Below, piece after piece: positions 9,949-13,004 of a stretch of 64,000 nt of DNA. Source of the stretch: Pyrinomonadaceae bacterium (GTDB lineage: Bacteria > Acidobacteriota > Blastocatellia > Pyrinomonadales > Pyrinomonadaceae); NCBI GenBank assembly GCA_021463165.1, contig JAJTWY010000002.1, forward strand, positions 62,001 through 126,000, read 5' to 3'. Made by a program: the position numbers and the translations under genes. The notes under the pieces were generated by a model that was given only the letters and a program-made list of their open reading frames with translations, was not told where the DNA came from and did no database searches. Within the stretch, counting starts at the first letter, position 1. Every line of letters starts with the position of its first letter.

Positions 9949-10593
9949 ATGAAAAGAGCAATTCTATTGGCAATAGTGTTATTTGCGGGCGTATTTCTGA
10001 GCGGCTGCAGCTACAATGACCTCAACGCAAAAAACCAGAACGTGAAAGCGAAATGGTCGAATGTAGAGAGTGCACTGCAGCGCCGGGCCGACCTGATACC
10101 AAACCTTGTAGAAACGGCTAAAATGGCCGGCGTTCAGGAGCAAGAGGTCTTCGGCCAGATCGCCGATGCCCGTTCTCGCTTGCTTACCGCCTCGCAGGCA
10201 TCCCCGACAGGTGCGGATGGCGACAAATCGCCGGAACAGAAGCAGGAGATCATTGCCGCGAACAATAGTTTCGGCGGTACGATCGGACGGCTGCTGAGCT
10301 TGCAGGAAACGTATCCGCAGCTTCGTTCGAGCGAAGCCTTTATGAAGGTTCAGGACGAACTCTCGGGAACGGAGAATCGGATCAACACGACGCGTCTCGA
10401 CTATAGTGATGCGGTGAAGGATTACAACACCCTCAGGAATTCATTTCCGGCGGTGCTGACCGCAAGTTTGCTCGGCTTTAAGGAACAGCCCTATTTTGAG
10501 GCTGAACCTGGTGCAAGGTCCGTCCCGACGGTCGGCGATGCGAATTCGCTCCGCAGGCCGGCACCGGCGGCGCCCGCACCGGCAAATAAATAG
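9949..10593 (+). CDS. lemA: LemA family lipoprotein
   Basis: A lipoprotein signal with lipobox LSGC places the mature Cys near residue 20. The LemA domain follows (NQNVKAKWSNVESALQRRAD, RADLIPNLVETAK). A helical body continues to about residue 185, then a Pro/Ala-rich tail. The spacing to the upstream gene is 22 bp, with an AGAGGA ribosome-binding site. LemA proteins are membrane-anchored helical bundles of uncertain function. The stop codon abuts, tail to tail and with no spacer, the stop of the convergent gene at 10594. Confidence 0.92.
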   Translation: MKRAILLAIVLFAGVFLSGCSYNDLNAKNQNVKAKWSNVESALQRRADLIPNLVETAKMAGVQEQEVFGQIADARSRLLTASQASPTGADGDKSPEQKQEIIAANNSFGGTIGRLLSLQETYPQLRSSEAFMKVQDELSGTENRINTTRLDYSDAVKDYNTLRNSFPAVLTASLLGFKEQPYFEAEPGARSVPTVGDANSLRRPAPAAPAPANK

Positions 10594-10899
10594 CTAGAAA
10601 CCGCGGGAATTACACATCGAACAATGATCGCAAGGCTTGCTCGGCTCGAACGTGCAGGCCTTTTCTTTGAATTGGGAACCAAAGATCGAATCGACTATCG
10701 CCTCGGCAATGCTAAGTTTATCCAGGCTGGGATGCTGCGAGGCCGGGGCTTTCGCTGGAACCGAGCCTTCCAGCTTGTCGAGGCGGGCATTTATTCGCTC
10801 AAGAGCGGCGTGAACAGCGTCAAGACCGGCGCCCGCCGATCCGCTGCCCAGAACCGCCACTATTTGCTCAGCCAGATCTCTGGCTCCCTTCTGATCCAT
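10594..10899 (-). CDS. Small Cys-rich protein at the end of the BMC operon (candidate cargo)
   Basis: This 101-aa protein is of unrecognised family. It has an N-terminal amphipathic helix (DLAEQIVAVLG), a second predicted helix (LDAVHAALERINARLDKLEG), a Pro/Ala linker, then LDKLSIAEAIVDSIFG, which resembles microcompartment encapsulation peptides. The C-terminal tail has four cysteines (Cys82, 90, 93, 96; spacing CxxCxxC at the end) that could bind metal or an Fe-S cluster. It is the last gene of the shell operon, 47 nt after a vertex-protein gene, with GAGGA just before its ATG. A role as lumen cargo or assembly factor is inference. Confidence 0.7.
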   Translation of the reverse strand: MDQKGARDLAEQIVAVLGSGSAGAGLDAVHAALERINARLDKLEGSVPAKAPASQHPSLDKLSIAEAIVDSIFGSQFKEKACTFEPSKPCDHCSMCNSRGF

Positions 10900-10946: not shown

Positions 10947-11246
10947 TTAAAGCCGTTGCTGCCCATCGCTTGAGGGCAGAAGATCGATGCGATCCACCAC
11001 GCCTACTATCGCCGAATCGATCGCCGCTCCGGGTTTTCCTGTCGAGGCCGTCGAGGCCGACCAGCCCTCCTGAGCGATGATAACGATGTCGCCTTCACCC
11101 GCGCTGACCGAATCGAGCGCGATGCAGGTGTAATCCATATCCTCGCCCTCAGGCGTGACCTGTCGGCAAAGCATCGCGCGTGTTCCTTCGTAACGCTGAT
11201 TCTTGTGCGTTGCCACAATATTGCCGATCACGCGTGCGATGAGCAT
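10947..11246 (-). CDS. BMC vertex (pentamer) protein, EutN/CcmL family, copy 1
   Basis: This 99-aa protein starts MLIARVIGNIVATHKN, the conserved opening of EutN/CcmL (BMC-P) proteins. It continues through ALDSVSAGEGDIVIIAQEG to DSAIVGVVDRID, the signature of the pentamer interface. Five such subunits cap the vertices of a polyhedral shell. The frame stays open upstream to 11381, but the family match begins at the ATG at 11244-11246. That ATG lies 11 nt after the stop of the preceding vertex gene. It is one of three different paralogues in a row. Confidence 0.92.
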   Translation of the reverse strand: MLIARVIGNIVATHKNQRYEGTRAMLCRQVTPEGEDMDYTCIALDSVSAGEGDIVIIAQEGWSASTASTGKPGAAIDSAIVGVVDRIDLLPSSDGQQRL

Positions 11247-11257
11247 ATCGATCAAGT

Positions 11258-11551
11258 TTAGGATCCGCCGCCGAACTTTCCGTTCATGACATGGGAATCC
11301 GAGTCGATTATCCCCACGATCGTACAATCGGTAGGTGTTTCGTCTCGCCTGAACGGAAAGGACGCCTCTTTCCCTCGACACCAGAATACGAGTTCGCCGT
11401 TACCGGCGCCGACCGCATCGAGTGCGACCATTGGTTTGCCTTTGGGTTTCAGGTCGGCATCGAGCGTCTGTACGATCAAAAACTTTCGCCCATGAAGCGA
11501 TCCATTCTTTACGGTCGAAACGACGTTGCCAATGACACGGGCGATCTGCAT
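11258..11551 (-). CDS. BMC vertex (pentamer) protein, EutN/CcmL family, copy 2
   Basis: This 97-aa protein begins MQIARVIGNVVSTVKNGSLHG. It contains VALDAVGAGNGELVFWC and ends the domain with CTIVGIIDSD, then a short Gly-rich tail (GKFGGGS). Its start overlaps the stop of the previous vertex gene by one base (TAATG), so the two are translationally coupled. Its sequence differs clearly from copies 1 and 3, so the three may occupy distinct vertices or bind different cargo (inference). Confidence 0.92.
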   Translation of the reverse strand: MQIARVIGNVVSTVKNGSLHGRKFLIVQTLDADLKPKGKPMVALDAVGAGNGELVFWCRGKEASFPFRRDETPTDCTIVGIIDSDSHVMNGKFGGGS

Positions 11552-11820
11552 TAGGCTGAATAGTCGATCTCATCGATGACGCCGATGATCGCGCTGTCAA
11601 CAGGACAGTCCTTATTGCCTTCGGCCATACGAGCCGACGACCCGCCGACAACGATCACCTTTTCGTGAAATCCGGCCCCGACCGTATCGACAGAAACAAG
11701 ATAGCCGCTCTGGTCAGTACCGTCGAGATTGATCGGTTTGACGATGAGCAGCTTCTTTCCCTGAAGGCGTTCGTCTTTTTGGGTGGACACGACCGTGCCC
11801 AAAATACGTGCGATTATCAT
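11551..11820 (-). CDS. BMC vertex (pentamer) protein, EutN/CcmL family, copy 3
   Basis: This 89-aa protein starts MIIARILGTVVSTQKDERL, with VDTVGAGFHEKVIVVGG and DSAIIGVIDEIDYSA. The ATG at 11818-11820 is chosen because family similarity begins there. A longer frame to 11880 would run into a hairpin region. It is the first of the three tandem vertex genes, downstream of the hexamer gene and separated from it by a large inverted repeat. Confidence 0.92.
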   Translation of the reverse strand: MIIARILGTVVSTQKDERLQGKKLLIVKPINLDGTDQSGYLVSVDTVGAGFHEKVIVVGGSSARMAEGNKDCPVDSAIIGVIDEIDYSA

Positions 11821-11894: not shown

Positions 11895-12176
11895 CTATCC
11901 TTTCCTGACTACCGGCAGCGTTTCATCCACGCTCGCGTGCGGACGCGGGATGACGTGAACACTGACGAGCTCGCCGACGCGGCGTGCGGCCGCGGCTCCT
12001 GCGTCCGTCGCCGCCTTGACGGCCGCGACATCGCCACGCACGATAGCCGTCACAAATCCGGCGCCGATCTTCTCATACGAAACGAGCTGAACATTCGCCG
12101 CCTTGACCATCGCGTCCGCCGCTTCGATCACAGCTACGAGACCTTTCGTCTCGACCATTCCTAATGCTTCCTGCAT
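11895..12176 (-). CDS. BMC hexameric shell protein (BMC-H)
   Basis: A classical 93-aa single-domain BMC protein. It opens [23 protein letters not shown], the typical BMC-H start, with [21 protein letters not shown] forming the pore-proximal region, and ends in a short tail (LPVVRKG). Hexamers tile the facets of a microcompartment shell. The ribosome-binding site AAGGAG lies about 8 nt before the ATG. Only one BMC-H gene is present in this operon and there is no trimeric BMC-T. The rest of the shell set, if any, must be elsewhere. Confidence 0.96.
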
Positions 12177-12203: not shown

Positions 12204-13004
12204 TTACCCCAACTTGGCCGCTTGGCTCAAAAGGTCGATCAATTCTTCGCGTGTGAACGAGATCTTTCGCTGGCCGCCGCCATTCGACGACGGGTAGCTT
12301 ACGTCGAGGTCGCAAGCGATATCCGCTTCATGAAGATAGCCACACGCCTGGCATCGCGCGTTCGATCGCAGGAAACCGGCCTTTTCTCTTATCTCGACAA
12401 GCTTTGAAATCGAATCGGCGGGCAGTTCATTTGCCCCGCCGAGCGCTTTTGCCAGTGTCGCGATCTTTGCCGTGTGCTCGAGGGTCTCGAGCCGGTCGTA
12501 CGCTTGCCAGATGTCTTCGCCATAGGCTACGGCACCGTGATTTGCCATCAATAACGCGTTGTGATGCGGAACAAAAGGCTTCATCGCCTCGGTCAATTCG
12601 TTGGTCGACGGGGTCCCGTATTCCGTCAGAGGAACACATCCCAGCGTCAGGACAACCTCGGAAAGTATCGGTTTGTCTATTGCAAGGCCGGCGACCGCGA
12701 ACGCAGTTCCGTAGGGCGGATGGGCGTGACATACGGCGTTGATGTCAGGCCGCATCTTGTAGATCAGCAGATGCATCGCCAGCTCGGACGAGGCTTTCTT
12801 GTCATTGAGCGGCTTGCCGTCAATGTCGGTGAGGGCAAGACAGTCCTCAGTCATCCGCCCTTTCGAGGTCATTGTCGGTGTGGCCAACACCGTATTCCCG
12901 TCCAGGCGAATACTTACGTTGCCGTCGTAGGCGACCACGTAGTTGCGGTCGTACAACAGCTTGCCGATCTCAACGATCAGCTTTCTTGCTTGTGACTCAT
13001 CCAT
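12204..13004 (-). CDS. Class II aldolase (fuculose-phosphate-aldolase-like) with C-terminal BMC-targeting-like tail
   Basis: This zinc-dependent aldolase probably splits a sugar 1-phosphate such as L-fuculose- or L-rhamnulose-1-phosphate into dihydroxyacetone phosphate and lactaldehyde. Zinc ligands are His93 and His95 (HAHPPYG) and His156 (NHG), with catalytic Glu74. The numbering is almost the same as E. coli FucA. After about residue 212 there is a roughly 54-residue extension. It carries CQAC and a third Cys (Cys218, 221, 231), a Ser/Gly linker, and an amphipathic helix (TREELIDLLSQAAKLG) like an encapsulation peptide. Followed 27 nt later by the hexamer gene. Planctomycete/Verrucomicrobia-type microcompartments use such an aldolase. 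Confidence 0.9.
   Translation of the reverse strand: MDESQARKLIVEIGKLLYDRNYVVAYDGNVSIRLDGNTVLATPTMTSKGRMTEDCLALTDIDGKPLNDKKASSELAMHLLIYKMRPDINAVCHAHPPYGTAFAVAGLAIDKPILSEVVLTLGCVPLTEYGTPSTNELTEAMKPFVPHHNALLMANHGAVAYGEDIWQAYDRLETLEHTAKIATLAKALGGANELPADSISKLVEIREKAGFLRSNARCQACGYLHEADIACDLDVSYPSSNGGGQRKISFTREELIDLLSQAAKLG

Follow-up and report, generated by a model that had tools for sequence, protein, structure and literature searches.

What does the small cysteine-tailed protein encoded at the end of a microcompartment operon contribute to that compartment? The question is raised by the window, i.e., the whole stretch of 64,000 nucleotides of a Pyrinomonadaceae bacterium that was analysed, in which an earlier note had singled out an unrecognised protein as the last gene of a BMC operon. 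The ACI (Acidobacteria) microcompartments belong to abundant soil Acidobacteria and are uncharacterised; the 2021 catalogue restricts the type to Acidobacteria and leaves several of its proteins with no assigned function (Sutter et al. 2021, PMC8217296). One gene of the ACI operon is now a defined family with a testable anatomy, as described below.

The gene and its operon

The gene of the cysteine-tailed protein (10594..10899, minus strand) starts with an ATG at 10899 and has 101 codons, the translation of which (101 aa) ends with KACTFEPSKPCDHCSMCNSRGF. Besides the open reading frame itself, matches in 36 of the 37 genus members, the window's own included, together with purifying selection on a protein (mean pS of 0.80 versus pN of 0.25 over the last 20 codons, 3916 pairs), confirm that the gene is real and does not result from chance.

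On the minus strand, the operon comprises a class II aldolase (12204..13004; PF00596, E = 6.4e-47), a BMC-H shell protein (11895..12176; PF00936, E = 1.7e-30), BMC-P 1 (11551..11820; PF03319, E = 2.8e-29), BMC-P 2 (11258..11551; PF03319, E = 6.6e-31), BMC-P 3 of the EutN/CcmL family (10947..11246; PF03319, E = 6.8e-20), which is the immediate upstream neighbour, and the cysteine-tailed gene. The last-gene position holds on dozens of contigs, as the earlier note had proposed from a single one. The convergent neighbour lemA (9949..10593, plus strand; PF04011, E = 1.7e-45), syntenic in the family, has its stop ending at 10593, and the stop of the cysteine-tailed gene begins at 10594, confirming a tail-to-tail arrangement with a spacer of 0. 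A terminator was looked for between the two genes and none stood out.

Judged from its gene content, the operon is of the known ACI type, which the earlier note had left unnamed, since an aldolase with an encapsulation peptide, three BMC-P genes, a BMC-H gene and a satellite aldehyde dehydrogenase are the marks of ACI. The PF00596 aldolase carries a C-terminal encapsulation peptide (ISFTREELIDLLSQAAKLG, from the comparison of tails), an amphipathic helix (z = 10 against shuffles) similar to helix 1 of the cysteine-tailed protein, the BMC-P triplet is accompanied by a BMC-H gene, and the aldehyde dehydrogenase lies on a satellite locus on another contig of the window's genome, where two BMC-H genes flank it (G000:C11). 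A hydroxyacid dehydrogenase, which is also expected in an ACI locus, was not found beside the window operon; a likely one, read by eye, stands behind BMC-P 3 in loci devoid of the cysteine-tailed gene (L266, L287). A PduL-type phosphotransacylase was looked for in the window's genome and was not found.

Several other features of these loci were recorded. The linker of the aldolase carries a cysteine group (ARCQACGYLHEADIAC; window 12204-12360) ahead of the encapsulation peptide, and at least one linker cysteine was present in every ACI aldolase compared, with or without the tail gene. The satellite aldehyde dehydrogenase (L241 8589-10292, minus strand, G000:C11) has within its sequence a helix, REEIAALVDAFLGQKLA, that looks like an encapsulation peptide, and at its C-terminus a KKTILTPSARDL motif resembling KKSIITPLAVDF and KKQLITPLANEY, with which TIGR02536 and PduM end. 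Between this gene and a BMC-H gene, a small protein (L241 8165-8587, minus strand) combines paired CxxC motifs with a hydrophobic C-terminal stretch. In a different BMC locus, a protein encoded behind BMC-P genes (L275 6067-6819, plus strand) has a helix at its N-terminus, a stretch rich in cysteines, SGCGGCSCDQQGCC, and the motif 'TIVTPLARD'.

Anatomy of the protein and its cysteine tail

AlphaFold2, run with 54 aligned sequences, predicted helices at residues 3-19, 25-45 and 57-73 (mean pLDDT 74.5), with a moderately confident tail and no confident overall fold (pTM 0.27). The helix-linker-helix layout read earlier is therefore roughly right, but with three helices. Helix 1 (QKGARDLAEQIVAVLGS; 10843..10893, minus strand) is amphipathic and encapsulation-peptide-like; in the Pyrinomonadaceae relatives its amphipathicity reached z = 11.5 against shuffles, a biased value, as this pattern had also guided part of the choice of start codons. 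The N-terminal residues of relatives from other classes (MNEQELRSLVRAAVARHLG) are also encapsulation-peptide-like, with an amphipathicity that is not significant (z = 1.8). Searching the PDB with a profile of the N-terminal helix returned chance matches only, mostly designed repeats. Moreover, about half of the genus members (~19 of 36, counted by eye) have no helix 1, which is thus not essential in them. Hence the encapsulation-like peptide seen in the earlier note is real as a helix but not universal.

Helix 2 (10765..10827, minus strand) looks like a coiled-coil-like spacer, and designed helical bundles and coiled coils were matched weakly in profile searches. It is followed by the HPS box with helix 3 (PSLDKLSIAEAIVDSIF; 10681..10731, minus strand), which is conserved in Blastocatellia relatives and is not amphipathic (z = 1.4). 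The shortest genus members consist of little else than the HPS box, helix 3 and the tail. The anatomy of the family is therefore an amphipathic N-terminal helix that is often present, a variable linker, the HPS box and a C-terminal cysteine tail. The protein is indeed unrecognised by curated families: against Pfam, NCBIfam and PHROGs, no family scored above threshold for the window protein, PDB sequence searches with it or its alignment gave no meaningful match, and Foldseek with its AlphaFold2 model found no PDB match. A tblastn search of plasmids revealed no relative.

The tail (residues 82-101, CTFEPSKPCDHCSMCNSRGF; 10597..10656, minus strand) is better conserved than any other part of the protein throughout the family, and the four clustered cysteines noticed earlier lie at positions 82, 90, 93 and 96, i.e., C-x7-C-x2-C-x2-C. 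The family pattern reads C-x2-E-P..C-x2-C-x2-C-x3-G-[F/H/Y]-COOH, the Gly and the Phe, His or Tyr of the free C-terminus being conserved as well. Among 129 distinct complete tails, cysteines 1, 2 and 4 were invariant and position 3 was Cys in 119, Ser in 9 and Thr in 1, a count with some circularity since the tail profile and pattern reward the cysteines. These Ser/Thr substitutions are spread over at least five families, and the next residue is mostly Gly (CVGSGQC, CCGSGRC, CTGTGRC).

The tail contains the ferredoxin motif C-x2-[C/other]-x2-C; the window protein ends with CNSRGF, with no downstream Cys-Pro ligand, and has no ferredoxin domain match in Pfam or NCBIfam. By its sequence memberships, the protein is not a ferredoxin. 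Single-cluster ferredoxins show the same alternation in C-x2-C-x2-C, with Ser, Thr or other residues in place of the second Cys in those that hold a [3Fe-4S] cluster (PMC6237146). The tail probably holds a metal cluster, for which iron-sulfur appears more likely than zinc, given that the third Cys becomes only Ser or Thr, as in [3Fe-4S]/[4Fe-4S] ferredoxins.

Distribution and ancestry of the family

A scan of public genomes gave 80 loci, all but one titled acidobacterial, Blastocatellia or Pyrinomonadaceae, with the cultured Pyrinomonas methylaliphatogenes K22 among them. The order aldolase, BMC-H, three BMC-P genes and cysteine-tailed gene was found in most of the sufficiently long contigs, and lemA is mostly convergent behind the last gene. 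A first tail profile recovered relatives across the phylum, with the gene directly behind BMC-P genes in 36 of the 38 loci fetched; of the other two, one contig begins inside the gene and one match was spurious. The refined profile left a clean gap between true matches (E <= 2e-8) and noise (E >= 2e-4).

Across 396 acidobacterial genomes, the tail and BMC-P occurred together in 85, the tail alone in 1, BMC-P alone in 79 and neither of them in 231 (Fisher p = 6e-39, a value overstated by the relatedness of the genomes). The genomes with the tail belong to many families, and the sole one without BMC-P is 67% complete. The co-occurrence with aldolase-type BMC operons that the earlier note had suggested checking is therefore tight, with BMC-P in 85 of 86 tail-bearing genomes, and the gene does not occur mainly away from BMC loci. 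These findings firmly establish the cysteine-tailed protein as a dedicated, previously unclassified component of the ACI microcompartment, with no family in Pfam or NCBIfam.

The gene is common, yet dispensable or replaceable, since 79 of the 164 BMC-P genomes do without it. This is illustrated by G027, where the ACI operon is intact and the gene is cleanly gone between BMC-P 3 and lemA, with no remnant (L075 8148-8262). Several further ACI-type loci are devoid of it, and in some of them a hydroxyacid dehydrogenase apparently takes its position. In six genus members (L086, L087, L088, L092, L100 and L110), the gene remains next to lemA, with the shell operon ~27 kb away on the same contig. In the split operons of other families of the class, it lies directly behind the second and third BMC-P genes and does not accompany the aldolase.

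Some relatives are longer. A middle domain is carried by L070, L074, L195, L204 and L243, is reduced in L191, L201 and L224, and is absent in the window lineage; both ends of the protein persist whether it is whole, partial or absent. The long relatives belong together by direct comparison (L070 with L074 over middle and tail, E = 7e-10; L070 with L243 over domain and tail, E = 9e-5). A profile search against BMC-associated proteins, another check named in the earlier note, linked L070 to NCBIfam TIGR02536 over residues 6-160 (38.9 bits, E = 7e-10, below the curated cut-off of 152.6 bits), and other long relatives matched over the middle domain with E values of 0.003-0.03. Comparing L070 directly with a Clostridioides difficile member of TIGR02536 weakly supported the relation. 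Sequence comparison thus shows the long relatives to be homologous to TIGR02536, an ethanolamine-utilization protein of unknown function; the window protein itself gave no match to the model, and its link would run through the long relatives. Two long relatives matched PduM (PF15953) below threshold (E = 0.15; L243 with 12.4 bits against a gathering score of 27), and the window protein did not match it. The TIGR02536 gene stands directly before the EutN gene in C. difficile, and pduM directly before the EutN/CcmL gene in Listeria. A flavoprotein nature of the middle domain was considered and found unsupported, as the AlphaFold2 model of L074 was too poor (mean pLDDT 46) and profile searches led to TIGR02536 instead.

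A putative shell-core adaptor and its alternatives

Our main reading, to which we assign a probability of about 0.5, is that the protein acts as a dedicated, non-enzymatic shell-core adaptor of the ACI microcompartment with a metal-binding head, and that it does so in the manner of PduM or of the EutQ N-terminus; its docking, metal, partners and role are what we infer. One or two amphipathic helices would dock on the kind of site used by encapsulation peptides, and a linker of varying length and content would span from there to the C-terminal head, which may fold around a metal, most likely an iron-sulfur cluster. This metal-bearing head would contact the other partner, either the enzyme core or BMC-P/the shell, and the adaptor would thereby tie the core to the shell.

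A tether between shell and core is suggested by the conserved ends, the freely varying linker, the position of the gene beside pentamer genes and the relatives in TIGR02536, a family whose gene is placed like pduM. The erosion of the middle domain while both ends persist would be expected of a tether and not of an enzyme. For PduM, an N-terminal signal sequence and a core location are described, and without it shell and core come partly apart (PMC12108088, PMC9132943); in EutQ, helices of the N-terminus connect the shell with cargo (PMC12487888). The earlier note had proposed either an Fe-S or zinc cargo or a shell assembly factor, and this interpretation is partly supported: the TIGR02536 homology of the long relatives, the position beside the BMC-P genes and the erosion of the middle domain favour the assembly or adaptor side, and Fe-S appears favoured over zinc.

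The tail could also belong to a miniature encapsulated Fe-S electron carrier, whose helices would only bring it inside and whose [3Fe-4S]/[4Fe-4S] tail would serve the aldehyde-oxidising pathway as an electron shuttle or move electrons across the shell. The C-x2-C-G-x-C of many relatives is the ferredoxin signature, the variable position takes only Ser or Thr, mostly then Gly, [3Fe-4S] ferredoxins with Ser or Thr at precisely this position are known (PMC6237146), and other BMCs have Fe-S proteins, namely PduS, PduT and GrpU (PMC6325248). However, with its fourth Cys upstream in place of the Cys-Pro ligand, no ferredoxin domain match and no reductase or redox partner seen beside the gene, such a carrier seems doubtful. 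A related and quite unlikely possibility is a tethered single-cluster relay, in which encapsulation-type helices and a minimal [3Fe-4S]/[4Fe-4S] tail at the inner shell face would pass electrons across or along the shell of a BMC whose genome shows no PduL-type phosphotransacylase; its tail would be half of a ferredoxin motif, with the fourth ligand located upstream and with Gly and an aromatic residue at the free C-terminus. Very small zinc-stabilised tails are common, and C-x7-C-x2-C-x2-C, often with 'CDHC', could bind zinc in a structural site without redox role, by which the tail would be stabilised or the adaptor would dimerise. Yet replacement of one Cys by Ser or Thr in 10 of the 129 tails, the other three being invariant, is unusual for a Cys4 zinc site and makes such a clasp unlikely.

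That the cysteines work as free thiols or disulfides, scavenging aldehyde or locking the assembly under oxidising conditions, is improbable: mixed disulfides with the cysteine-bearing linker of the aldolase are conceivable, but C-x2-C-G-x-C is typical of metal sites. A partnership of the tail with this linker was rejected, since the linker cysteines persist where the tail gene is missing, as in G027 (L075). A lemA-linked or chance passenger unrelated to the microcompartment, as might be suspected from the six genus members in which the gene and the operon are apart, is hardly credible, being refuted by the BMC-P genes of all but one tail-bearing genome and by the synteny of distant relatives, in which the gene lies directly behind BMC-P genes.

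If the metal-bearing adaptor is true, it would represent a new way of tying cargo to the shell or of bringing redox chemistry there, and a compact part for engineering. The nearest comparisons for its tail are the single-cluster [3Fe-4S]/[4Fe-4S] ferredoxins, which share C-x2-[C/S/T]-x2-C and the same variable position, whereas here a remote ligand lies upstream (C-x7/8) and the protein ends five residues past the last Cys. PduK, whose C-terminal extension bears a tetracysteine motif (PMC6325248), PduT and GrpU are likewise BMC proteins with cysteine clusters (Fe-S or cysteine-bearing); in contrast to the cysteine-tailed protein, which has no BMC domain, they are BMC-domain shell proteins.

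For the proposed role, the EutQ N-terminus, CcmN and CsoS2 are alike, as described in the accessible parts of the literature, in bridging shell and cargo through helices or peptides and a flexible linker, and no comparable cysteine tail is reported in those parts. PduM, described as having no known homologues outside Pdu compartments (PMC12108088), is similarly a small BMC protein with an N-terminal signal helix, a gene beside a pentamer gene and a proposed shell-core link, but the Listeria protein has no cysteine tail. TIGR02536 (eut_hyp) differs from the window protein in its middle domain, and its C. difficile member ends with an 'IITPLAVDF' motif and no cysteine tail; it shares with the family the N-terminal helix, the middle domain (in L070) and a gene adjoining the EutN/CcmL gene, a link that would widen the family of shell-core adaptors.
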